Shown one piece after another: positions 3,954 to 64,000 of a stretch of 64,000 bases of DNA. The stretch comes from Alicyclobacillus pomorum DSM 14955 (GTDB lineage: Bacteria > Bacillota > Bacilli > Alicyclobacillales > Alicyclobacillaceae). Every line of letters starts with the position of its first letter. Position 1 is the first letter of the stretch. The notes beneath the pieces were generated by a model. That model did no database searches. It was not told the DNA's origin and saw nothing but the letters and a program-made list of their open reading frames with translations. The stretch spans positions 1 to 64,000 of the forward strand of contig NZ_AXAR01000002.1 in NCBI RefSeq assembly GCF_000472905.1, in the 5' to 3' direction. The translations under genes were made by a program, and so were the position numbers.

Positions 3954-5003
3954 TCAAGAATATCGTGCCTTGCGGACAGCTTCCCACAGGCCGTTGAGGT
4001 ACGCCGCGCCGAGCGCCCTGTCGTACAATCCATAGCCCGGCCTTCCGCGCTCTCCCCAGATCATGCGTCCGTGGTCCGGCCGAATGGGCCCCTGGTAGTC
4101 GATGTCGCTGAGCGCGCGAATGTACGCGCACATGTCGATGGAGCCGTCTTCGGATAGGTGGCCAGATTCTACAAACGCCTTTTCGCCCGTAATCTTGATG
4201 TTCCTGGCGTGCACAAAGTTGACCCGTTCCCGCTCTCCGAAGTAACGCAAGATCTCCACCACGTTGTTGGCCGGGTCTGCCCCGAGCGATCCACTGCAAA
4301 TACAGAGCCCGTTACTTGGGCTATCGTACATCTTCGTCAGTCTCTCGAGGTTCTCTTGGTTGGTCATGATTCTCGGTAGGCCGAAGATGGACCAGGGGGG
4401 ATCGTCCGGGTGAATCGCCATTTTCACCTGCAGACGATCCGCCTCTGGCATCACGGCCTGTACGAAATACGTGAGGTGGTCCCACAGTTTGTCCTCGGAG
4501 ACGTCTTCGTAGGCGCGCAGCAATCGGTGCAACTCACCGTCCGGATAACTGGTGTCCCAGCCTGGTAGACGCAGCGAACCCCGGACGGGGTTCATCTGCT
4601 CCACCTGCGCCTGATCAAAGGCCAGGGTGGTGGAGCCGTCCGGTAGGCGGAACGAGAGGTCGGAGCGGGTCCAGTCAAAGACCGGCATAAAATTGTAGCA
4701 GACCACCCGAACGTCCGCCTTGGCCAGGTTGCGCAACGTTTCAATATAGTTCGCGATGTACCTGTCCCGGGTGGGGCGGCCGAGCTTGATATCCTCGTTC
4801 ACAGGGACGCTTTCAATGACGGACAGCTCGAGCCCGTGTGACTCCACTTCTTGCTTCCGTGCGAGAATCGCCTCGTAGGGCCATACCTCGCCGACGGGAA
4901 CGTCGTGCAGTGCGGTGACAATCCCTTTCATACCGGGAATTTGTCGAATGTGCTGCAGTGTGACCGGATCCTCCGGTCCGTACCAGCGAAATGTGAGCTT
5001 CAT
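3954..5003 (-). CDS. uxuA: D-mannonate dehydratase
   Basis: This enzyme dehydrates D-mannonate to 2-keto-3-deoxy-D-gluconate in glucuronate breakdown. The 349-residue product starts MKLTFRWYGPEDPVTLQHIRQ and contains GIVTALHDVPVGEVWPYEAI, HPDDPPWSIFGLPRI and a complete C-terminus (DHGRMIWGERGRPGYGLYDRALGAAYLNGL), all characteristic of UxuA TIM-barrel dehydratases; the length is close to the Bacillus enzyme. GGAGG precedes the ATG. It is the last gene of the hexuronate operon, with kdgK and kdgA upstream to consume its product. Immediately downstream is the hydrolase remnant, which marks the operon's rearranged end. Confidence 0.93.
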   Translation of the reverse strand: MKLTFRWYGPEDPVTLQHIRQIPGMKGIVTALHDVPVGEVWPYEAILARKQEVESHGLELSVIESVPVNEDIKLGRPTRDRYIANYIETLRNLAKADVRVVCYNFMPVFDWTRSDLSFRLPDGSTTLAFDQAQVEQMNPVRGSLRLPGWDTSYPDGELHRLLRAYEDVSEDKLWDHLTYFVQAVMPEADRLQVKMAIHPDDPPWSIFGLPRIMTNQENLERLTKMYDSPSNGLCICSGSLGADPANNVVEILRYFGERERVNFVHARNIKITGEKAFVESGHLSEDGSIDMCAYIRALSDIDYQGPIRPDHGRMIWGERGRPGYGLYDRALGAAYLNGLWEAVRKARYS

Positions 5004-5037
5004 GCCTACCCCACCTCCTCTTTGCCGCTCATGGCCA

Positions 5038-6087
5038 TCAGGGCCACTGACAGGAGATAACGCGGCCCTCTTGACTGCTTTCGAGGGCGTACTCTATCAC
5101 TTGAATGACATGTCTCGCCTCTGTTGCGGTGACGGGAACTGGTCCTTCCCCGCACAGGGCACGGGCCAGTTTCGAATAGTAGACTTCGTAGCAACCGGGA
5201 CGTGTGGATCGCTTCTTGGTGACCAGCCCGGACTCGTCCGCGACGGTCAGATGGCCGTAATAGCGCTCGTCATCCTGGCCCCACTGCGGGTGCCCCGGAC
5301 GGATTCCGGCTTTCAGTTGATCCTCCTGGGGGTCCATCCCGTACTTCAAAAAGCTCCCCTTGTCTCCGTGGACAGCAAAGCGCGGACCGGGATTGGCAAC
5401 GAGGGAACCGGAGTGGAGAACGACGCGCATCCGTCCATACCCCATGACGATGTGGAAGTAGTCCGTTGCTATCCTGGGGTGCCGCTGAGACAGGACGTCC
5501 GCGTACACCGTCTCCGGTAAACCGAACAGTACGAGCGCTTGGTCAATCAAATGCGGGCCCAGGTTGTACAACGTCCCTGCCCCTACCCCGTTTTCTTCTT
5601 GCCAGCGAGGCCGCACCTCCGGCCGATAGCGGTCAAAATGCGCTTCATAAGTGGAAATGGTTCCGAGCGTACCGTTCTCCACGAGTTCCTTAACCGTGAG
5701 AAAGTCTCCGTCCCATCGGCGGTTGTGGAATACGCTGAGAATCAGATTTTGGCTTTCCGCGAGCTGAATCAGTTCATCCGCTTCTGCGACCTGAAGGGTG
5801 AACGGTTTTTCGACAACCACGTGTTTTCCGTGCGTCAGCGCCAGTTTGGCAATCCGGTAGTGTTCCGCATGCGGATAGGCCACAACTACCAAGTCGACTT
5901 CCGCGTCACGACATAACTCTTCCGGAGACGTAAACACCCGGGCACCGGGGAGGGTGGCTTCCACCCGGTCCCGACGACTCGTGACCACAGCGCGTATCTC
6001 AAAGTCGTCCAAGGACTGCAACAGGGGTGCGTGAAACGTCGCACCGGACAATCCGTATCCAATCAAGCCAACGCGTATCTTCGCCAT
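5038..6087 (-). CDS. Gfo/Idh/MocA oxidoreductase, IolW/YdgJ-like
   Basis: This is a 349-residue NAD(P)-dependent sugar or polyol dehydrogenase. A Rossmann motif GLIGYGLSGATFHAPLL opens the protein, the VVEKPF motif with the conserved Lys is near residue 96, and the C-terminal domain carries YNLGPHLIDQALVLFG. The GxGLSGxxFHxPLL start is typical of the branch with B. subtilis IolW (scyllo-inositol dehydrogenase) and E. coli YdgJ. It lies between kdgA (4-base gap) and uxuA in the hexuronate operon. A reduction or oxidation of a uronate-linked sugar is likely. Because the operon lacks a dedicated fructuronate reductase of the SDR type, that is one possible role (inference). Confidence 0.85.
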   Translation of the reverse strand: MAKIRVGLIGYGLSGATFHAPLLQSLDDFEIRAVVTSRRDRVEATLPGARVFTSPEELCRDAEVDLVVVAYPHAEHYRIAKLALTHGKHVVVEKPFTLQVAEADELIQLAESQNLILSVFHNRRWDGDFLTVKELVENGTLGTISTYEAHFDRYRPEVRPRWQEENGVGAGTLYNLGPHLIDQALVLFGLPETVYADVLSQRHPRIATDYFHIVMGYGRMRVVLHSGSLVANPGPRFAVHGDKGSFLKYGMDPQEDQLKAGIRPGHPQWGQDDERYYGHLTVADESGLVTKKRSTRPGCYEVYYSKLARALCGEGPVPVTATEARHVIQVIEYALESSQEGRVISCQWP

Positions 6088-54396: not shown

Positions 54397-55773
54397 GTGC
54401 AGAACGTTGAGCCAAAAGGCGGGTTCAAGCGGGTGCTTGGGATTCGGCAAGTGTTGGCGATTGCGATTGCCGCAATCTCGCCGACAACCTCTGTCTTTCT
54501 CGTCTACCAGGATGGCCTGAAGCACGCAGGTACTGGCGTCTTTTGGGCGTTTGTGATTGGCGCGTGCATTGCCATATCCATGGCATTTTGCTACGCGGAG
54601 CTGGGTTCCCAGTACCCTGGCGCTGGTGGAGCGTACACGATTGTCCGCCGGGCCTTAGGGAAACCGATGGGGTTTGTCGCCGTCCTGCTCTTTCTGGTGT
54701 TGGGATTGGTTATCACCGCGAGTATTCTCGTATCGGCCGCGACCTATTTACATGCGCTCATCCCACAGATTCCAGCGAACTGGGCCGCCGTGGTGATGAT
54801 GCTGGTGGTCACGTGGTTTTCGTTGGAGCGAATCGGGGCGGCCAGTTGGGTTGCTGCGGTCATGCTGATTGTTGAACTGGTCGTCATTTTTGCGTTCATC
54901 ATTGTGACCTTTGTTGGAGCACAGCACCCGCTGTCATTCCTTCTTCACCCCATCGCTGCAGACAGCTCTGGTACCGTCACCGGAATCAGCTGGAGCGCAT
55001 TGCTCGCCGCTGTGGTGCCTGCACTGTTTGCTTTCAACGGCTACGACTGGCCGCTGTACTTTGCTGAAGAAACGGTAGAACCCCGGCGGGTCCTGCCACG
55101 CGCTGTGATGATTGCGGTACTCGCATCCGTGGTGATTGAAGTCCTGGCCGTCGTTTCCGCGACGCTCGCCATTCCCAACCTCTCAGACGCCATGAAGTCG
55201 GAATCCGCTCTCACCTACATCGCGCAGTCTGTTGCCGGCCACGGTGCGGCAACGGTCTTGCTCATTGGGGTCATCATCGCGATGTTTGACACGGGTTTGA
55301 GCGGCAACCTCGCCTATGCCCGAATCTACCTGGACTCTGCTCGCGACAACAGCTGGCCTGAACCCATAAACCGCTTCTTTGCGAGTATGAACCGGCATAA
55401 CGTTCCAAAATGGGGATTTGTCTTTCTCGCCATTGGGAACGCGTTGCTGTGCTACTTTTCGTCCCTGAACAGCCTCATCACGTTCACGGGCGTGATTATC
55501 GTGGTGATTTACCTGCTCATTGCCATATCTGCGATTGTCAGCCGGCTCAAGAATGCATCCGGTGAGCGCCCCTTCCGCATGCCACTCTGGCCGCTGCCGC
55601 CCATCATTGCCATCATCGGGGTGATTCTCGCACTGGCGCAACAAGACGCGGGAGATTTGCTCAAGACGGCCATTATGATTGTGGTGGGTCTGGTGTACTG
55701 GCTCGCATATCTTCGCACTCGAGCAGACCGTCGCGCCAGCCAGGTAGGAGAAGCGGAAGCGCGAGTCGAATAA
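54397..55773 (+). CDS. APC-superfamily amino acid/amine permease
   Basis: The 458-residue membrane protein has about 12 spans and the APC pattern: LAIAIAAISPTTSVFLVY, CYAELGSQYPGAGGAYTIVRRALG, ALFAFNGYDWPLYFAEETVEPRRVLPRAVM. Substrate unknown (amino acid or polyamine). It is a GTG start after AGGAGG. A terminator follows and then the broken XRE-cupin regulator gene, which may once have controlled it. Confidence 0.85.
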   Translation: MQNVEPKGGFKRVLGIRQVLAIAIAAISPTTSVFLVYQDGLKHAGTGVFWAFVIGACIAISMAFCYAELGSQYPGAGGAYTIVRRALGKPMGFVAVLLFLVLGLVITASILVSAATYLHALIPQIPANWAAVVMMLVVTWFSLERIGAASWVAAVMLIVELVVIFAFIIVTFVGAQHPLSFLLHPIAADSSGTVTGISWSALLAAVVPALFAFNGYDWPLYFAEETVEPRRVLPRAVMIAVLASVVIEVLAVVSATLAIPNLSDAMKSESALTYIAQSVAGHGAATVLLIGVIIAMFDTGLSGNLAYARIYLDSARDNSWPEPINRFFASMNRHNVPKWGFVFLAIGNALLCYFSSLNSLITFTGVIIVVIYLLIAISAIVSRLKNASGERPFRMPLWPLPPIIAIIGVILALAQQDAGDLLKTAIMIVVGLVYWLAYLRTRADRRASQVGEAEARVE

Positions 55774-55826: not shown

Positions 55827-55925
55827 GATGAAAACATTTTCTCGCAGCGACAGCCAGATGTTGATTCCGCACGACGTCCAAGGTGTCGCTGCACGTACAG
55901 TCCCATGTCCGAAAGGAAGCATCAC

Positions 55926-56470
55926 ATGGAGTTTGACTACGCAAAGCTGCGCCAAGTTCGACAACAAAAAGGTCTCACCATCAAGGAATTGGCGGACGCT
56001 TGTGATGTCAGCCCAAGTCTCATTAGCCAGGTCGAACGGGGCAAGGTGACGCCCACGTTGACCGTGTTTTGGCGGATCTGTCAGGCACTCGACATCCCCA
56101 TGCATTACTTTTTGGACATCATCGCTCCGAAAGCATGGTCGTCCGCAAGCATCAGCGAAAAATCATCCAATTCCCGAACTCTCACGTCAAATACCAACTG
56201 CTCAGTCCGAACTTGCAGGGGCAGATTGAGTTCTTGCTCGTGGAAATTGAGCCCGGCACTGCGCATGATCCAGAAGGTATGGTGACCCACACTGGAGAAG
56301 AGTGCGGTGTGATTCTCGAAGGTGAGTTGATTGTACGGCTCGGTACCCAGGAAATTCACCTGAATGAAGGAGACAGCATTTGTTTTCCCTCGTCCACGCC
56401 GCATCGATTTGTGAACCCCGGTGACACTGTGTGCCGGTCCATCTGGGCGATGACACCGCCGAGTTTCTAG
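55926..56470 (+). pseudogene. XRE-cupin transcriptional regulator with a frameshift
   Basis: The first frame (ATG at 55926 after AAAGGAAG) encodes an XRE helix-turn-helix, LRQVRQQKGLTIKELADACDVSPSLISQVERGKVTPTLTVFWRICQALDIPMHYFLDIIA. The cupin part, SMVVRKHQRKIIQFPNSHVKYQLLSPNLQGQIEFLLVEIEPGTAHDPEGMVTHTGEECGVILEGELIVRLG...NEGDSICFPSSTPHRFVNPGD, is in the -1 frame. The shift falls within about 56124-56140. PuuR/YdcN-like regulators of this plan control amine or amino-acid genes. No slippery sequence of the usual type is present, so mutation or sequencing error is more likely than programmed shifting. Confidence 0.78.
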
Positions 56471-56580: not shown

Positions 56581-57555
56581 CTACAACCGCACTGGCTTTC
56601 TCAACCTCGCAGATTCATAGGCGGCGAGTGCAACTTGCAAGGCACGTAGGCCGTCCTCTCCCGTGATGGACGGCGTACGTCCCTCTCGGACACACGAAAT
56701 AAAGTCCGCCACCAGACCCAGGTCCATCTCGTCGCCCCAGAAGTCGTGCTTCACCTTGTTGTCCAAGTCGCTGTAGACGGTCAAATGCTGGGCGAACGCA
56801 TCCACTCGCGTCACCCCCTGGGTTCCGACAATCTCTAGGGTCACATCCCCCCAGGTGGGAAACGTCTCGCTTCTGGACCAGCTCGGATCGTGAGAGGCAA
56901 TCACCCCATTCTCAAACTCCAGCATCAATAGGCCGCAGTCATCGCACGCGATGTCAGAGAAGCGGGTGTCCACTTCTGCGTACACTTCCTTGACCTCGCT
57001 GTTCAGGTACCACCGCATGATGTCAATGACGTGTACGGTGTGATCCAATACCGCTCCGCCCCCGGACAGTTCCTTCTGCACAAACCAACCGCCGGGGTTT
57101 TGCCCACGATTCGTCCCCCGCATGGCGACAATTCGCCCCAATTGTCCTTCATCAATCATCTGCTTGACGCGGCGCATCGGCGTGTTGAAGCGGACGGGGA
57201 ACGCAATCTGCAAGATGACCCCATGTTCTCGACACGCGTCAATCATCCGGTGCGCATCATCCAACGTGGTCGCGATGGGCTTCTCGCAGAGCACGTGTTT
57301 CCCTGCCTTGGCGGCATCCACGACCACATCCGCGTGCTTTGCGTTTTCTGTACAAACCACAACGGCGTCGACATCGGTTGCGAGCAATTCCCGGTAGTCA
57401 CTGTAGTACGCGCATCCGAACTGTTTGGCTGCCTCTGTCACCCGCAACGGATTGTCGTCGGCAACTGCAACCAGTTCGACGTTGTCCAACTGCTTCAGAC
57501 ACGTGGCGTAGCTGTACGCATGCATGTGGGCAAAACTGATGATGCCGACTTTCAC
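56581..57555 (-). CDS. Gfo/Idh/MocA-family oxidoreductase (sugar operon, last gene)
   Basis: The 324-residue NAD(P)-dependent enzyme has VGIISFAHMHAYSYATCLKQL as a variant Rossmann start, VLCEKPIAT with the catalytic Lys, and SGGGAVLDHTVHVIDIMRWYL. The usual GxGxxG is replaced by SFAHMHAY, seen in a subset of the family. It overlaps the stop of the upstream Gfo/Idh gene by 4 bases (ATGA). Probable role: oxidation or reduction of a keto-sugar in the operon's pathway. Confidence 0.85.
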   Translation of the reverse strand: MKVGIISFAHMHAYSYATCLKQLDNVELVAVADDNPLRVTEAAKQFGCAYYSDYRELLATDVDAVVVCTENAKHADVVVDAAKAGKHVLCEKPIATTLDDAHRMIDACREHGVILQIAFPVRFNTPMRRVKQMIDEGQLGRIVAMRGTNRGQNPGGWFVQKELSGGGAVLDHTVHVIDIMRWYLNSEVKEVYAEVDTRFSDIACDDCGLLMLEFENGVIASHDPSWSRSETFPTWGDVTLEIVGTQGVTRVDAFAQHLTVYSDLDNKVKHDFWGDEMDLGLVADFISCVREGRTPSITGEDGLRALQVALAAYESARLRKPVRL

Positions 57556-58553
57556 TGCAACCCCTCCCTCAGAAAGACAGGCTCGCCGGTTTGCACAGAT
57601 TGAAGCGCCGCCAAGCTGATTCTCAGGGCTTCATACGCGTCTTCCGCCGTGACGAGCGGCGTGTGCCCCGTGATGAGACAGTCTATGAAGTGTTCCAATT
57701 CCACCTGGTACGGGCTCTTCACGAGCGGGCTCTCCGGGACCGCGACGCCTGTCGTGCCCGACTCCGACGCTCGCAAATCCGTATGGATGGACGTCGCCTC
57801 GTCACTCGCATGCTGAATGATGCCGCCCGTGCCGGCAATTTCGAACGCTGTGCGGAATCCGCTGGGTGCGGCCCAGGTTCCTTCCACGTGGGCAATCACC
57901 CCACTCGAGAACCGCAGACTGACGAGCGCGTGATCCATTCGGTTGAACGCTTGTTTCCACAAGCTTTTTGCGTACACCCTCGCGACCTCTCCAAACGTCC
58001 AGCGCAGGAAGTCGAAGTCGTGGATGCACAGGTCTGTGATGAGGGTCCCGCTCTTGTCTGCGCTTGCATACCAATCGTTCCATGCGATAGGAAATGCGCC
58101 GCCACGAAACGTTCGGACTGTCCCCACGGGTCCGACCGCCCCCAATTGGACCAGATGATGGGCCCGCTGATACTCCGGGAAGAATCGCACCACGTGCCCA
58201 ATCAGCAGTCGAACCCCTTCGCGCGCACAAACCTCCATCATGGCGTTGGCGTCTTCCGCGGTCAGGGCGATAGGTTTTTCGCAAATCACGTGTTTCTTGG
58301 CCCGCGCGGCTTGTTCTACGTAACCTCTATGTAAGTAAGTGGGCACGCAAACATCGACGACCTGCACGTCCTCCTGTAGCAAGGCATCTTCCAACCGGAG
58401 GTAGTGCCGCGCCCCGTACCGGTCTGCCAGCGCGGTACCCACGTCTTCTCGAATGTCAACGACCGCGACCAGTCTGGCCTGTGTCATGCGTTGATATGCC
58501 TCTGCGTGCACGGTTCCCATGGTGCCCGCACCAACCACGACAACGTTTAACAT
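57552..58553 (-). CDS. Gfo/Idh/MocA-family oxidoreductase (sugar operon)
   Basis: The 333-residue enzyme has VVVGAGTMGTVHAEAYQRMTQARLVAVVDI, HVICEKPIALT with the catalytic Lys near residue 96, and GTLITDLCIHDFDFLRWTFGE. The plan matches myo-inositol/scyllo-inositol or glycoside 3-dehydrogenases. Start overlaps the TIM-barrel gene by 7 bases and its end overlaps the next Gfo/Idh gene, so the three are translationally coupled. Confidence 0.87.
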   Translation of the reverse strand: MLNVVVVGAGTMGTVHAEAYQRMTQARLVAVVDIREDVGTALADRYGARHYLRLEDALLQEDVQVVDVCVPTYLHRGYVEQAARAKKHVICEKPIALTAEDANAMMEVCAREGVRLLIGHVVRFFPEYQRAHHLVQLGAVGPVGTVRTFRGGAFPIAWNDWYASADKSGTLITDLCIHDFDFLRWTFGEVARVYAKSLWKQAFNRMDHALVSLRFSSGVIAHVEGTWAAPSGFRTAFEIAGTGGIIQHASDEATSIHTDLRASESGTTGVAVPESPLVKSPYQVELEHFIDCLITGHTPLVTAEDAYEALRISLAALQSVQTGEPVFLREGLQ

Positions 58554-59395
58554 GGAATACCGCCTCCTCTGCGAATGACGTCCAGTGCCCGGGACATCTC
58601 CGCCAGTGACTCAGACGGAAAACGGGGATTGGGTGGTATCTCCGCTGTCAGGTAACTGTCATACCCAACGTCCCGCAACGCCTTCATGACCACAGTCCAG
58701 TCGACGTCGCCATGCAGGAGTGACGTAAACCCGTGCACGTTGCCAACGTCCTGGCGAAAATCCTTCACGTGCACGCGTCGAATGAGACCTCCCAAGATGC
58801 GGATCCATTGTTCCGGAAACCCGAAAGCCAACACGTTTCCCACATCAAAGTACACCTGGAGCGCCGGGTGGTGGATTTCCTCGACAAACCGCTTCATCTC
58901 CAAGGGGCTTAACAAAAATCGATTCCAGACGTTTTCAACCGCAATCACAACGGAGTGCGCCGCCGCGTAGTCTGACAGTTCAGCGAGTGCGCTCTGCGCA
59001 CGCTCGTAGGCCGCGTCGTACGGCGTGTGTTCGTCCACCACGCCCGGTACCACCAACACCGTGTCCACCCGAAGCGCGGAAGCCACCTCTATCAGTCGCT
59101 TGCAAATGTCCAAGGCACGCCGCCGAACAGCCATGTCCGGGTCCGTGAACCGATAACGCCAAAACAGAGCGGTCGATACACTGGGCAACTCCAGTTGAAA
59201 CGACGCGGCAAGCTCCGCAATCCGAGCCAGTTCCTTGTCGCTCGTATCCAGCGTCACGATGCCGTTCTCCGTTAGGTCCAGTTCCACGCCGTCAAATCCG
59301 GCTTCCTTCGCGGTTTGAAAGACTCGCTCAACAGACCACTCGCTGGGGAAACAGCACTCGCTGGGGAAACAGTACAGATTGGCACCTTTTTTCAC
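58547..59395 (-). CDS. Sugar phosphate isomerase/epimerase-family TIM barrel
   Basis: The 282-residue AP-endonuclease-2-type TIM barrel has GFDGVELDLTENG, VVPGVVDEHTPY, VIAVENVWNRFLLS, VYFDVGNVLAFG and RRVHVKDFRQDVG, carrying the usual Glu-Asp-His-Glu metal ligands. Relatives are isomerases, epimerases, dehydratases (IolE) and keto-glycoside lyases. The N-terminus holds a 6-residue tandem duplication, CFPSEC-CFPSEW, made by an 18-base repeat at 59337-59372. It lies between a ROK kinase gene and two Gfo/Idh genes. Confidence 0.83.
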   Translation of the reverse strand: MKKGANLYCFPSECCFPSEWSVERVFQTAKEAGFDGVELDLTENGIVTLDTSDKELARIAELAASFQLELPSVSTALFWRYRFTDPDMAVRRRALDICKRLIEVASALRVDTVLVVPGVVDEHTPYDAAYERAQSALAELSDYAAAHSVVIAVENVWNRFLLSPLEMKRFVEEIHHPALQVYFDVGNVLAFGFPEQWIRILGGLIRRVHVKDFRQDVGNVHGFTSLLHGDVDWTVVMKALRDVGYDSYLTAEIPPNPRFPSESLAEMSRALDVIRRGGGIPC

Positions 59396-59440
59396 AAACT
59401 CAGTCTCCTTCCCCCGCCGATACTGCGTCTTGGATGGCGT

Positions 59441-60448
59441 TCACCGATATTCCCTCAAGGTCTGTGATGCTTGAGGAGTGCCGTATGTGAAACACTGATA
59501 GGCAGCTCCAAGAACCCCCGCGTCCGCCCCGTGCGTGGACAAGACAATCTGGACTGGATCCACCAGGGACCGCACGCCGAGGGTTCGAACCTGCCGCTCC
59601 ACCAGAGCGCGCAGCCACTCACCGTCCTCCATCACGCCGCCCCCGAGTACGACGATGGTGGGATTGAACGTGTGGATGAGGGTCACCACACCGAACGCCA
59701 ATGCCTGCACCGTTTCCGAGATGACCGCTGTGGCCAGCGGATCGCCTTCCTTGAACCACTGAAACACAGCACGGCTGGTCACGCAGTCCGGGTCCTTGTG
59801 ATACGCGCGAACCGCAGGCGTGTCAGCGTCGCCGACTGCCAGTGCCAACTGGTGCTTCATCCGCCGCGCAATGGCGACGCCGGACGCGTACGCCTCGAGG
59901 CACCCGCGAAACCCGCAGCTGCAGTCCGGCCCATTCATGTCCACCGTGATGTGCCCGAGTTCACAAGCGCCACCCCACGCGCCGCGCACCAGATGGCCCC
60001 CCGAAATGACACCGCCTCCGACACCCGTGCCCAACGCCAGGCAGACCACGTCGTCATGCCCTTTGGCTGCGCCCAACGACCGCTCCGCGAGTGCCATGAC
60101 GTTCACGTCGTTGTCTACCCACACAGGTAAGTCGTATGATTCGGACAATATGTCGCGCAGCGGAACGTCATTCCAGTCGGGGATATTGGTGGTTCCGGAC
60201 AGAACTCGCCCGCGCGCAAAGTCAATCTGACCAGCCGTGCCAATCCCGATGCCGACAAGCGGGTTTACCCCGAGTCTCGCAGCCTCTTCGAGGAGCGCAT
60301 CCAAGAGAAGCCGCAGTGACTGCAACACGGCATGCCGACCTTTCTCCGGCGTCGGCACTGTTTTCCGGGTTACAATTCGCCCTTCTTGATGAACAATGGC
60401 CCCGGCGATTTTCGTGCCTCCGATGTCAATCCCGATACTGTACTCCAT
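59441..60448 (-). CDS. ROK-family sugar kinase (glucokinase-like)
   Basis: The 335-residue protein has the ATP motif GIDIGGTKIAGAIV, the ROK zinc and signature region CELGHITVDMNGPDCSCGFRGCLEAYASG, LGTGVGGGVISGG and VWVDNDVNVMALAE. The EIGH-type motif appears here as ELGH, as in hexokinase-active ROK proteins. It likely phosphorylates glucose or another hexose released by the neighbouring enzymes. GAGGGGG precedes the ATG. Confidence 0.88.
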   Translation of the reverse strand: MEYSIGIDIGGTKIAGAIVHQEGRIVTRKTVPTPEKGRHAVLQSLRLLLDALLEEAARLGVNPLVGIGIGTAGQIDFARGRVLSGTTNIPDWNDVPLRDILSESYDLPVWVDNDVNVMALAERSLGAAKGHDDVVCLALGTGVGGGVISGGHLVRGAWGGACELGHITVDMNGPDCSCGFRGCLEAYASGVAIARRMKHQLALAVGDADTPAVRAYHKDPDCVTSRAVFQWFKEGDPLATAVISETVQALAFGVVTLIHTFNPTIVVLGGGVMEDGEWLRALVERQVRTLGVRSLVDPVQIVLSTHGADAGVLGAAYQCFTYGTPQASQTLREYR

Positions 60449-60469
60449 CCGCCGTCCCCCTCGCTCCGG

Positions 60470-61309
60470 CTACAGCGTGCGCAGGATTTCCACCAGATTG
60501 TCAATGCTATCAGTCGATCCGCGCTTTGGCTCTTCCTCCCCTTCAAACTCGACGGTCAGCCACCCGTTGTAATTGGCGTCTTTCAACGCGCGGAGAATAT
60601 ACCGGAGATCCACCTCTCCTTCGCCGGCGATTTTGCCCACGTACTTCTCGCCGGTGGTGGATGCGTACGCGTGACCGGGGTAATCGTCGTCCACCTTCTG
60701 GAAGTCCTTAAAGTGCACGTGAGACACGTAGTCCTTGAGCTTACCGATGGCCTCGCTGGGGTTCTCGCCGACCAACAGGAAGTTGCCCGTGTCGAACGTG
60801 GACCGTAACGCAGGCGAGCCCACCGCCTCAATCACTTCCCGCACTTGATGCGCCTTGCCGGCAAACAGTCCGTGGTTTTCCAGGCAGAGCGTGACGCCCT
60901 GAGCTTGTGCGTACTCGGCCGCTTTCTTCAGCCCCTTGATAATCTGAGACTTGGCTTCTTCAAAGGACGTATCTCCCGCTTTATCGCCTGAGAACACACG
61001 CACCACCTTGGCACCAAAGCGGACGGCCATGTCCACGGAATCCGTGATGTCCTTCACTTGCTCCTGCCACCGCACTTCATCGGTGATGGCCAGGTTATTG
61101 GAAGCTGAGAAGCTCGCAACCTGTAGGCTGGTCCGCTGCAAAGCCTGTTCCACCCGCGGAATCTCCTCTTCTTTGTTGCGCCAAAACATGCTTAACAGCT
61201 CAACACCCTCTGCCTTCGTGGTGCTGACGAACTCAATGAAGTCCACCATATCCCACGTGTTGTCGTACCAGTACTGATGGACACTCCACATACTGAGCGC
61301 AATCTTCAT
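60470..61309 (-). CDS. Sugar phosphate isomerase/epimerase-family TIM barrel
   Basis: The 279-residue TIM barrel has EFVSTTKAEGVELLSMFW, CLENHGLFAGK, LRSTFDTGNFLLVGEN, VSHVHFKDFQKVDDDYPGHAY and LTVEFEGEEEPKRG, with the full metal-binding set (Glu, Asp, His, Glu). It differs clearly from the barrel at 58547. In keto-glycoside and levoglucosan pathways pairs of such proteins catalyse beta-elimination and hydration. It lies 15 bases after the first Gfo/Idh gene of the operon. Confidence 0.85.
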   Translation of the reverse strand: MKIALSMWSVHQYWYDNTWDMVDFIEFVSTTKAEGVELLSMFWRNKEEEIPRVEQALQRTSLQVASFSASNNLAITDEVRWQEQVKDITDSVDMAVRFGAKVVRVFSGDKAGDTSFEEAKSQIIKGLKKAAEYAQAQGVTLCLENHGLFAGKAHQVREVIEAVGSPALRSTFDTGNFLLVGENPSEAIGKLKDYVSHVHFKDFQKVDDDYPGHAYASTTGEKYVGKIAGEGEVDLRYILRALKDANYNGWLTVEFEGEEEPKRGSTDSIDNLVEILRTL

Positions 61310-61324
61310 CCGTCTCCACTCCCG

Positions 61325-62395
61325 TCAGAATGTGATTTCTCGACCTTGTTCAGACGACGCCGCAATGGCGACGAGCATGTGCACCACGTCCCTCCCTTGC
61401 GCCACGTCGCTGCATGGGGGGGCACCGGTGTGCACGCATTCAAGGAAATGGTCAATCTCCCGTTGGTACAGGGGGCCCATCCCCACCGACGGCGTGGTAC
61501 TGGTCAGCACGCCGTGGGCTGTGCTGTAGAAGCGAAGCGGATGGAGTGACATGCCGCCTTGGGCGCCAAAGAGATCCACCTGCAACGCGTCGTCCTCCGG
61601 GCCGTTGATGGCCCACGAGACTTCCAGTTGCAACACACTGCCGTTGGCGAAGCGAATGAAGGCGGAAGCAAAGTCCTCCGTGGTGTATATCTCGTTGTTT
61701 TCATTACCCTGCGCCTTGGCCTTCCACGTTTGGATAAAGTCGAGCTTGTCGTTGCCAATCCCCTGGTACAGGAAACCGCTGACCGATTTCACCTCCGGCT
61801 TGCCCATCAGCCACCAGGTGACATCCAGCGCATGCACGCCAATGTCCAGCAGCGGCCCGCCACCGGACACCGCTTTGTCGGTGAACCAGCCCTTTGGCGT
61901 GCCCCTCCGCCGCAAAATGCGCGTCTTTGCGTAATACACCTGCCCGAGGTCCCCCGCCTCCACATACCGCTTCATCACCGCTACGTCATCTCGGTAGCGG
62001 TGGGACATGCCCACCATCAGCACTTTGCCAGACTCCGTCACCTTGTCGACCAGCGCCTGCGCCTGGTCCAATTGCGTGGCCATCGGCTTCTCAAGGAGCA
62101 CGTGCACGCCGGCGTCGAGGGCCTTCAACGCGAGATGGACGTGCGAGGTGTTGGGCGTGCAAATGCTGACCGCGTCCAGTGACTCGCTGGCCAGCATCTC
62201 CTCGGCACTGCCGTACACACAAGGCCGAGGCCGACCGGTCTCTTTGGCAAATGCCGCGGCTGCAGCAGACACCCGCTCCACTTCAGGATCCGCAAACGCC
62301 ACGACCTCCACGTCCTGTCGAGCTGCGTAACTGGGCAAATGCGCCGCGAGCGCAATGGATCCAACCCCAATGATGCCTACGCGAGTTGTTTTCAT
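61325..62395 (-). CDS. Gfo/Idh/MocA-family oxidoreductase (sugar operon, first enzyme gene)
   Basis: The 356-residue enzyme has VGIIGVGSIALAAHLPSYAARQDVEVVAFADP, VHVLLEKPMATQ with the catalytic Lys, and GGGPLLDIGVHALDVTWWLMGKPEVKSV. It has an insert with TTEDFASAFIRFANG common in glycoside/inositol dehydrogenases. The frame runs up to 62470 but GGGGTGGTG sets the ATG at 62395. A candidate sigma-A promoter and an inverted repeat lie upstream. Confidence 0.87.
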   Translation of the reverse strand: MKTTRVGIIGVGSIALAAHLPSYAARQDVEVVAFADPEVERVSAAAAAFAKETGRPRPCVYGSAEEMLASESLDAVSICTPNTSHVHLALKALDAGVHVLLEKPMATQLDQAQALVDKVTESGKVLMVGMSHRYRDDVAVMKRYVEAGDLGQVYYAKTRILRRRGTPKGWFTDKAVSGGGPLLDIGVHALDVTWWLMGKPEVKSVSGFLYQGIGNDKLDFIQTWKAKAQGNENNEIYTTEDFASAFIRFANGSVLQLEVSWAINGPEDDALQVDLFGAQGGMSLHPLRFYSTAHGVLTSTTPSVGMGPLYQREIDHFLECVHTGAPPCSDVAQGRDVVHMLVAIAASSEQGREITF

Positions 62396-62424
62396 CGATG
62401 CACCACCCCATCCGTTGTTCAACG

Positions 62425-62476
62425 AGCGATTTGCAAATGTCCAGAGCAGTGGATCGTCACGATGATGCAAATCGCT
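62425..62476. repeat. Inverted repeat upstream of the sugar operon
   Basis: AGCGATTTGCA (62425-62435) and TGCAAATCGCT (62466-62476) are perfect complements separated by 30 bases, 30-80 bases before the gene start. It may be a pair of operator half-sites or an mRNA stem. Confidence 0.5.
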
Positions 62477-62674
62477 GGAATGATTTCCATGCCTCTTTGA
62501 AGTCTGTCGCCGTGATGCCTGTGATGTGGTTGAAAGGGTAGATTCAAGATGGAGTCACTATGGAGTACACATTTTTAGAGGTTTACGATTTGAACACGAA
62601 TTCGTTGACTGATATTTGTAGAGCGGAGTTCATATCCATAAAAATACATTTTGCCGGATATTTTCTTTACAGAG

Positions 62675-62703
62675 AGCGTAACCTAGCTGTAGATATGTGT
62701 CAA
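62675..62703 (-). promoter_or_regulatory. Candidate sigma-A promoter of the sugar operon
   Basis: TTGACA (perfect -35) and TACGCT (weak -10) with a 17-base spacer on the minus strand, about 280 bases before the first Gfo/Idh start. Confidence 0.45.
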
Positions 62704-62763
62704 TACTCATTCAATTCTCACTTTTTATTTGAGCCATTCGACGTCTTGGCCTCAGGTGGGTTG

Positions 62764-63963
62764 CTAAAACACATCCCCTCCGCGCTTCACCATCCAGGTA
62801 AAACCACCGAGGCTGACGAAACAGGTGACGAAAGCAACCGCGTACAGCACGCTTCCTCCAGCTTTATCGAATATCGTGCCACCCACCAGACTACCGATAA
62901 TGGCAGCAATCCCCGTGTTCGTTGCACTGTACACCATTTGCGAGGTGACGCGATTGGACTCATTGCTCACCCGGGCAGCCAGGGATATCCCCGCCGCCAG
63001 CGCGAGGCCGAAGGAGGCGCCGTGCAGAAGTTGCAACAAAATCATGACAACGGTGGGTGGATTCAGGCAGAGAACGGCCCACCGAAAGGCGAATACGGCG
63101 GTGGATAGCCACAGCACGCGCAGCGGCCCAATCTTTTGAATCAGTCGCCCGGACAAGAAGAATAGCGGCAACTCACTCATGGCCCCCAGTGCGTAGATGA
63201 GCCCCAGCCATGACTGGGGTCTCCCTAAATCCACGTAGTACAGCGAGAAAAAGTTGCTGTTCATCCACTGCGTCACCGACATGAGGAACGACAGAACCAA
63301 GATCTGAACGAACTGGCTGTTCCGCAGCACGCTGGACAGCCGATGGACCCCGCGTACCTCGCGCCGCCCCAACCACGGTGTACTCGGATAACCTGCTAAC
63401 CCGAACAAGGCCAGCGCAGTGGCGACCAAGTAGGATGGAATGAGCCAATGAATGCCAAAATACTGATACACAAGTGCTGCCGCGTTCGCAGCCATGGCAT
63501 ACCCGAGCGATCCAAACATGCGAATCTTCCCGTACAGACGGATACCCGTGTTGTACACCGTCATACTGTCGGACAGTGGGATCAAGCTCGTCTGAAAGAT
63601 GGCCATCACCCCCGTCGCGAAGGCAAAAGCCCAAACGCTGTGAAGGTTCGGCAACAAGAGATAGGCCGCCAACGGGCCCATCAGCATGCCGACGAAAAGG
63701 CTACGCCTAGGTACATTGTACCGGTCGTTCAGCACGCCCCAAAGGGGTTGAACCAGCATTCCCACCGCAGGGATGACGGCTAACACCCTTCCAATTTGGG
63801 TGTCGTTGGGGCCGTGAGATCTCAAAAACAAGCTGTAGTACGGCGAAAAAACACCGACTGTTGTGTAGAAGAGGAAATAATACGCGGACATACGAGCGTA
63901 CCGCGCCGGACCCACCGGAGCCAACTCGGACGGTTTCAGCGATTGCACGTTTACTTTTGGCAT
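62764..63963 (-). CDS. MFS transporter
   Basis: The ~399-residue carrier has 12 predicted spans, the start YARMSAYYFLFYTTVGVFSPYYSLFLRSHGPNDTQIGRVLAVIPAVGMLVQPLWGVLNDRYNVPRRSLFVG with the motif-A loop GVLNDRYNVPRR, and a second half beginning SVLRNSQFVQILVLSFLMSV. It fits the MFS_1-like/sugar symporter group (LacY/NHS-like plan). The frame is open to the window edge; AGGCAGG precedes the ATG at 63963. It probably imports the substrate of the downstream operon. Confidence 0.82.
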   Translation of the reverse strand: MPKVNVQSLKPSELAPVGPARYARMSAYYFLFYTTVGVFSPYYSLFLRSHGPNDTQIGRVLAVIPAVGMLVQPLWGVLNDRYNVPRRSLFVGMLMGPLAAYLLLPNLHSVWAFAFATGVMAIFQTSLIPLSDSMTVYNTGIRLYGKIRMFGSLGYAMAANAAALVYQYFGIHWLIPSYLVATALALFGLAGYPSTPWLGRREVRGVHRLSSVLRNSQFVQILVLSFLMSVTQWMNSNFFSLYYVDLGRPQSWLGLIYALGAMSELPLFFLSGRLIQKIGPLRVLWLSTAVFAFRWAVLCLNPPTVVMILLQLLHGASFGLALAAGISLAARVSNESNRVTSQMVYSATNTGIAAIIGSLVGGTIFDKAGGSVLYAVAFVTCFVSLGGFTWMVKRGGDVF

Positions 63964-64000
63964 GCATGTACCTGCCTTAGTAGATTTTATCCACCACACT

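Follow-up and report, generated by a model that had tools for sequence, protein, structure and literature searches.

What does a bacterium degrade with an operon that combines a sugar kinase, three oxidoreductases and two isomerase-like barrels and encodes no glycoside hydrolase? This question is raised by seven complete genes on the minus strand of Alicyclobacillus pomorum DSM 14955, at positions 56581-63963 of the window (the whole 64,000-nucleotide stretch of contig NZ_AXAR01000002.1 that was analysed). Open reading frames and Pfam matches give, in reading order, MFS, GfoC, TIM2, ROK, TIM1, GfoB and GfoA (Table 1). The original prediction, made from the DNA letters, had described one major facilitator superfamily (MFS) carrier, three Gfo/Idh/MocA oxidoreductases, two TIM barrels and a ROK kinase running in one direction, and our analysis bears this out. 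It had further proposed a hydrolase-free pathway in which glycosides such as levoglucosan are converted to glucose through oxidised sugars. We find that these are probably 3-keto-sugar enzymes, and that glucose from levoglucosan-type glycosides is an unlikely product. The reading we favour, to which we give about an even chance, is an operon for the breakdown of an N-acetylhexosamine derivative, either a glycoside or a stereoisomer of N-acetylglucosamine (GlcNAc) or N-acetylmannosamine (ManNAc), that is remodelled through oxidised intermediates and feeds ManNAc-6-phosphate. The basis of this reading is gene content, kinship, conserved residues, the clade of the ROK kinase and linkage to NanE, the ManNAc-6-phosphate 2-epimerase.

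Matches to TIM2 at 1e-20 were found in 20 of 61 genomes, and matches to GfoA at 1e-80 in 44 of 398 genomes of the class, A. pomorum being included in both sets. We picked 43 neighbourhoods of up to 20 kb before their neighbouring genes were known, comprising 12 of the 28 TIM2 places and 31 of the 54 GfoA places, with near-identical genomes thinned. NanE was present in 12 of the 43 (six of the 12 chosen by TIM2 and six of the 31 chosen by GfoA). In these 12 loci, tblastn detected an RpiR-type regulator in 11, a ROK kinase in 11, GfoA in 11, TIM2 in 10 and TIM1 in seven. In several loci almost the whole set stands in a single run; L042, for example, runs NagB, NagA, RpiR, NanE, ROK, a GfoC-type gene, TIM2, a GfoB-like gene and GfoA, and L040 runs NanE, NagB, ROK, Gfo, TIM2, another Gfo, a zinc alcohol dehydrogenase, a glycoside hydrolase of family 20 (GH20), an unassigned protein, TIM1, GfoB and GfoA. 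NagB is found in L034 as well as in these two loci, and NagA in L042. gfoB adjoins gfoA in many related loci, and relatives of the MFS carrier occur in L034 (45%), L041 (47%) and L038 (a 42-residue piece). Because large parts of the gene set recur together in relatives, the set is not a product of mere chance.

We compared the linkage of NanE with that of UxuA, a sugar-acid enzyme, in 40 genomes and 42 neighbourhoods (41 fetched ones and a 19-kb stretch around the window operon); G007 and G057 are among the 43 neighbourhoods and lie outside these 40 genomes, which also served for the NagB count below. Twelve of 29 NanE genes above 190 bits lay inside the neighbourhoods, which make up 0.42% of the sequence, against 0.12 expected by a Poisson estimate that is weakened by assuming independent genomes and random gene placement, neither of which is true. 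None of the 22 UxuA genes above 400 bits lay inside (Fisher P = 5e-4 versus NanE). These counts omit one additional short NanE match in G348, which at 37.6 bits passes the family cut-off, and UxuA rows below 400 bits. The linkage is specific to NanE, though not universal, and the recurring neighbourhood is of amino-sugar type, with NanE, RpiR and, in a few loci, NagA, NagB or GH20.

The window kinase carries the ROK motifs DND, ELGH and CxCGxxGCxE. These motifs are not known to separate glucose kinases from ManNAc kinases, and we therefore turned to a tree (FastTree, midpoint root) for specificity. The window ROK fell in a clade of 11 with a support of 0.996. Of the ten members that join the window ROK there, nine were taken from loci with NanE; the tenth (L058) is separated from a NanE gene by 8.8 kb, a distance computed by hand that places this gene just outside the fetched stretch. 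Weighing this clade context above the family scores given below, we predict a kinase for ManNAc or another N-acetylhexosamine, and consider its specificity the weakest point of our reading. The kinase clade and the amino-sugar neighbourhoods argue against the glucose end point of the original prediction.

Beyond the window, the genome encodes one strong NanE (C1:345277), NagA on contig C4, a NagB-type gene on C35 and four ROK genes. Judging by these genes, all steps from ManNAc to fructose-6-phosphate appear to be encoded. The best match to the sialate lyase NanA reached 144.5 bits against a cut-off of 382, which is strict (1 of 14 control genomes passes it) and leaves room for a divergent lyase. 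With the ManNAc route apparently encoded and the usual source of this sugar, sialate lyase, not in evidence, the natural candidates for making ManNAc are the Gfo and TIM genes. The NanE gene on contig C1 adjoins a paralogue of GfoC (51% identity) and a number of other Gfo and TIM genes. This second Gfo/TIM cluster, from L049:10486 to L010:17755, contains DUF4855-type proteins with F5/8-type domains, sugar ABC transporter genes, NanE, five Gfo genes, an MFS-like gene and two TIM barrels. As a separate observation, related loci repeatedly have DUF4855 proteins that look secreted, and a metallophosphoesterase, between RpiR and NanE (L038:13531-15231, L039, L041; L010:8962-10797; L049:10486-12342), and DUF4855 may be an uncharacterised glycan-active family.

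The oxidoreductases differ in kinship. GfoC has its best PDB matches in DgpA (3.4e-56, residues 3-290) and then DgpA1 (1.1e-49), and in BLAST it aligns with Escherichia coli YcjS, annotated as a D-glucoside 3-dehydrogenase, at 34% identity over 98% coverage (1e-62). On the strength of this kinship with glycoside C3-dehydrogenases, we predict the same activity for GfoC. The best PDB matches of GfoA and GfoB are a mixture of Gfo dehydrogenases, several of them without an assigned function. The EKP lysine and the D-x3-H pair are present in all three proteins. A glycine-rich loop is usual near the N-terminus of Gfo proteins; at this position GfoA has S-[FV]-A-H-[ML]-H-A, and the 26 rows shown of a 37-sequence alignment, from which rows were skipped if their aligned part contained a stop, carry the full motif. 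His10 and His12 are kept in at least 95% of the 37 sequences, and the GfoA subfamily may differ from ordinary Gfo dehydrogenases in its use of cofactor. We also considered GH109, a Gfo-related family that is named in a reference title of PMC10628242, and rejected it; the GGHGG loop of this family is absent from all eight Gfo proteins tested.

A TIM2 family profile of 18 sequences matched Art22 best (6.5e-46), followed by unassigned barrels, IolE (5e-14) and DgpC1 (1.6e-13, profile positions 2-177 only), with a weak match to AtHYD (2e-5). Art22 was also first for the structure model (predicted local distance difference test, pLDDT, 85.9), both in Foldseek (1.1e-19) and in VIA-align (Z 32.6, root-mean-square deviation 2.4 over 267), where D-tagatose 3-epimerases and xylose isomerases came next (Z 27.1-28.6). 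The PDB title of Art22 labels it an isomerase, and no description of its reaction was found in the literature searched, among the matches listed. Two 3-keto-sugar enzymes, AtHYD (ranks 6-7) and YcjR (rank 9), appeared in the Foldseek list; because neither is in the best 50 VIA-align entries for TIM2, these ranks carry little weight. The TIM1 family profile (12 sequences, row L039 dropped from the alignment) matched UlaE (3.4e-19) and D-tagatose 3-epimerase (3.4e-17), and up to E 0.01 it matched neither DgpC nor HYD. The TIM1 model is poorer (pLDDT 74.9), and its fold search agrees with the profile in placing keto-sugar 3-epimerases nearest, with YcjR at rank 14.

Both barrels retain residues characteristic of metal-dependent TIM-barrel epimerases. 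E144, D173, H199 and E254 are invariant in the TIM2 family, as are E154, D184, H209 and E252 in the TIM1 family. When 30 members of the two families were aligned with YcjR and UlaE, the E, H, D and E residues were kept at the same places, YcjR being gapped at the D184/D173 position. In such barrels these residues bind the metal, the aspartate of the D184/D173 type among them. BLASTP of either barrel against YcjR gave no match at 1e-3. Both barrels look able to act beside a ketone, and their sequences are compatible with epimerisation, elimination or hydration alike. We slightly prefer epimerisation to elimination, since epimerases are what TIM1 most resembles. The oxidised-sugar chemistry of the original prediction is thus supported as far as it concerns Gfo and TIM kinship, namely that of GfoC with DgpA and YcjS and the E-H-D-E residues of the barrels.

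If the substrate is an amino sugar, the MFS carrier would take it up and GfoC, as its kinship with DgpA and YcjS suggests, would oxidise C3 of the amino-sugar unit. TIM1 and TIM2, with a metal and two glutamates, would shift the acidic hydrogen beside the 3-ketone. The outcome would be either epimerisation at C2 or C4, as with E. coli YcjR at C4, or expulsion of the C1 substituent, as in the Lgd and AtOGE reactions. GfoB and/or GfoA would then reduce the ketone and return the cofactor. GfoC might close the oxidation-reduction cycle alone if it acts like D3dgpA, which purifies with NAD(H) and passes hydride between the glycoside and the 3-oxo sugar (PMC11239390, excerpt). The ROK kinase, given its clade, would phosphorylate the resulting ManNAc, and the products of the NanE, NagA and NagB genes present elsewhere in the genome would complete the route to fructose-6-phosphate. 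The signal for the RpiR regulator would be a phosphosugar, perhaps ManNAc-6-phosphate, which is bound by pneumococcal NanR, an RpiR protein (PMC12713135, preprint, excerpt). There are precedents for both kinds of chemistry: YcjQ-YcjR-YcjS of E. coli for oxidation, epimerisation and reduction (annotation; PMC11543891, excerpt), and LgdA-B1-B2-C (PMC7676230, excerpt) and AtOGE/HYD (PMC10628242, excerpt) for oxidation, elimination, hydration and reduction. In the latter excerpt a hydration is proposed for AtHYD, the same as the LgdB2 hydratase step.

Taken one step further, these genes could form a lyase-independent route to ManNAc-6-phosphate, in which C3 of an N-acetylhexosamine glycoside or stereoisomer is oxidised, C2 (or C4) is inverted or C1 is cleaved via a 2-acetamido-3-keto intermediate, the ketone is reduced again to give ManNAc, and ManNAc is phosphorylated. 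We put this forward tentatively, as a possibility on which we would not yet rely. If true, it would parallel, for amino sugars, the ycjQRS and levoglucosan pathways. It would also account for NanE genes in genomes with no evident sialate lyase, that of A. pomorum among them, and alter how those genes are read. Catabolism through 3-keto sugars is known for glucosides, gulosides and levoglucosan, and a conserved set joined to NanE would bring amino sugars within its reach and supply a testable function for the unassigned subfamilies GfoA, GfoB, TIM1 and TIM2 that recur in the class. No description of an amino-sugar version was found in the literature searched, among the matches listed, which is not proof of absence; the sole match for 3-keto-N-acetyl was, in its excerpt, a paper on a UDP-sugar 2-epimerase.

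Several observations weigh against the amino-sugar reading. None of the three Gfo proteins, two barrels or ROK kinase reaches an NCBIfam curated (equivalog) cut-off, so the substrate, the oxidised carbon and the direction are not fixed by the family models and, like the step order, stand as a proposal. NanE is absent from the window operon by Pfam of its seven proteins, and the NanE on C1 belongs to a separate cluster. NanE is likewise absent from 31 of the 43 neighbourhoods, including 25 of the 31 chosen by GfoA. TIM2 relatives stand alone in L032 and L043 and with only a GfoC-type gene in L035; L032 and L033 are outside the 43-locus counts, and no other operon genes adjoin their TIM2 relatives, save for a substrate-binding-protein match in L032. 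UxuA lies 10-15 kb beyond the neighbourhood edge in G004, G019 and G025, suggesting that these regions are rich in sugar genes, and members of the NagB family (PF01182) are seldom inside (3 of 64 listed matches, with a fourth 0.7 kb outside by hand count). At the thresholds used, NanE, TIM2 and GfoA are all missing from the nearest genome of the same genus, which indicates that the system is accessory. Among inverted repeats upstream of 33 genes compared, none was common as an RpiR site, and no operator links the window and NanE clusters. The kinase adds to these difficulties. Its clade contains no characterised member, with E. coli NanK, NagK, Mak and AlsK all outside; its glucokinase score is 246.4 bits (cut-off 260.35) versus 151.3 and 142.5 with ManNAc-kinase models, the latter being the NanK equivalog with a cut-off of 450; and its BLAST scores with E. 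coli NagK and Mak exceed that with NanK.

The glucokinase score is one reason to keep glucose in view. Levoglucosan, or an O- or C-glucoside, could be oxidised at C3, undergo elimination and hydration, and be reduced to glucose for a glucokinase-type ROK. The operon has the same kinds of parts as two such systems: the LgdA-LgdB1-LgdB2-LgdC cluster of Bacillus smithii, with two Gfo dehydrogenases and two TIM-barrel 'isomerases' (PMC7676230, excerpt), and the GlycDH/OGE/HYD operon of Agrobacterium tumefaciens, with two oxidoreductases and two TIM barrels (PMC10628242, excerpt), whose HYD is in the Foldseek list for TIM2. GfoC, moreover, is nearest to DgpA of the puerarin system DgpA-DgpBC. However, the Lgd cluster has, in the same excerpt, a LacI regulator and an ABC transporter, whereas the window operon has a kinase and RpiR, and the levoglucosan dehydrogenase (LgdA) model NF052479 gives GfoA 128.5, GfoB 89.6 and GfoC 101.8 bits against a cut-off of 650. 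These scores give the levoglucosan part of the original prediction no support. The A. tumefaciens operon has other neighbours and its HYD matches TIM2 weakly in sequence. As for puerarin, all seven window genes belong to other Pfam families, leaving none for a DgpB-like small subunit, and the barrels are only remotely DgpC-like, with a partial match for the TIM2 profile and none up to E 0.01 for that of TIM1. Linkage to NanE and the ROK clade indicate amino sugars, and a glucoside substrate is accordingly unlikely. An inositol or inosamine pathway with IolG-like dehydrogenases and IolE-like or IolI-like barrels is most improbable. The IolG model does score GfoA at 178.7 and GfoB at 211.3 bits (range for the Gfo proteins, 112.5-211.3) and the IolE model scores TIM2 at 66.7 and TIM1 at 21.4, but these values are far under the cut-offs of 355 and 290, the operon with its seven genes has no space for further inositol genes, and neither the ROK nor the NanE linkage fits. 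The original prediction had itself named inositol enzymes as the case that would tell against it, and in the family models every IolG and IolE score lies below its cut-off.

Amino sugars could also enter by a more familiar door, as in a unit scavenging sialic or anhydro-sialic acid in which a Gfo protein acts like NanY or RgNanOx ahead of a lyase, the ROK and NanE. With two E. coli Gfo references, NanY outscored YcjS for both GfoA (97.4 vs 93.6 bits) and GfoB (98.6 vs 76.3 bits), and the NanE and RpiR context resembles nan operons. A. pomorum shares with the nanK-nanE branch of sialic acid catabolism a ROK, an RpiR and, elsewhere in the genome, NanE, NagA and a NagB-type gene. Unlike that branch, it has no sialate lyase over the (strict) cut-off, NanE lies outside the window operon, and ManNAc would have to come from the Gfo and TIM steps. 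PDB matches of GfoA and GfoB to other Gfo proteins beat those to YjhC and RgNanOx, and two TIM barrels and three Gfo proteins would not obviously be needed. We consider sialate scavenging very unlikely. A broad-range converter of monosaccharide stereoisomers, bringing rare sugars to one phosphorylatable hexose and linked to NanE in some lineages only, deserves more weight, though we think it doubtful. Many loci combine relatives of GfoA and GfoB with sugar ABC transporters and other ROK kinases in the absence of NanE, and E. coli ycjQRS turns D-gulosides into D-glucosides by like chemistry. The resemblance to ycjQRS extends to YcjS as a full-length relative of GfoC, to the fold of a metal-dependent TIM-barrel epimerase and to a zinc alcohol dehydrogenase, the kind of YcjQ, in 7 of the 43 related neighbourhoods (the one tested is 24% to YcjQ). 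By contrast, Pfam finds no zinc alcohol dehydrogenase among the seven window genes, and the operon has two TIM barrels rather than one, two extra Gfo proteins, a ROK and RpiR. The window ROK also belongs to the NanE-linked clade, and RpiR and NanE travel with these genes, both of which favour the amino-sugar reading over a general converter.

Table 1. Genes of the operon at 56581-63963 and the adjoining regulator, with the basis of each assignment.
Feature	Position in window	Strand	Basis
MFS carrier, LacY/MFS_1_like type	62764..63963	-	Pfam MFS_1_like, LacY_symp
GfoC, predicted C3 dehydrogenase for sugar or glycoside (DgpA/YcjS-like)	61325..62395	-	Pfam; PDB DgpA; YcjS; EKP and D-x3-H motifs
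TIM2, xylose-isomerase-like barrel, Art22-type isomerase	60470..61309	-	Art22 profile, model, fold matches, alignments
ROK sugar kinase, predicted N-acetylmannosamine (or N-acetylhexosamine) kinase	59441..60448	-	Pfam, motifs, clade with NanE-linked ROKs
TIM1, ketose-3-epimerase-like barrel	58547..59395	-	Profile to UlaE and D-tagatose 3-epimerase, fold, alignments
GfoB, second Gfo/Idh protein	57552..58553	-	Pfam, relatives, motifs
GfoA, third Gfo/Idh protein	56581..57555	-	Pfam, 37-sequence alignment
RpiR/MurR-type regulator gene (HTH_6 + SIS), 3' end	63977..64000 (whole C2:63977-64837 = L009:3978-4838)	-	Open reading frame, Pfam, NCBIfam

The coordinates of MFS and GfoC are those of ATG starts, chosen over longer GTG or TTG frames. 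The genes are less tightly packed than the original prediction held. Overlaps occur at only two junctions, GfoA/GfoB (4 bases) and GfoB/TIM1 (7 bases), and the others are separated by 45 (TIM1-ROK), 21 (ROK-TIM2), 15 (TIM2-GfoC) and 368 bases (MFS-GfoC). Given this last gap, gfoC-tim2-rok-tim1-gfoB-gfoA may be a unit apart from MFS. The regulator gene is upstream of MFS and ends 13 bases before its start, with most of it beyond the window end; it was scanned from two codons before the ATG, and its coordinates are given from the likely ATG. A palindrome 94 bases upstream of gfoC was considered as an operator and set aside as uninformative, the pattern occurring at six genome places, fewer than a reversed control pattern (nine).

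The description of the operon as hydrolase-free is correct for the window, where Pfam places none of the seven proteins in a glycoside hydrolase family, and does not extend to some relatives. GH36-type genes (L069:12260-14524, L073) and GH20-type genes (L040:12424-14472, L052) lie beside GfoA/GfoB there, as does a BadF/BcrAD-type kinase gene (L057:6275-7276, L061), hinting at different amino-sugar or galactoside inputs.

Two further features of the window were noted. On the plus strand at 55905-56470, an HTH_3 frame (55905-56285, Pfam) overlaps a cupin-like stretch recognised by eye in another frame (56069-56470). The pair adjoins an amino-acid permease (54397-55773) and resembles a single HTH-cupin regulator gene split by a frameshift; the break may be genuine or an artefact of assembly. 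A separate minus-strand cluster at 3954-6087, about 50 kb from the operon, contains a UxuA mannonate dehydratase and another Gfo/Idh gene.

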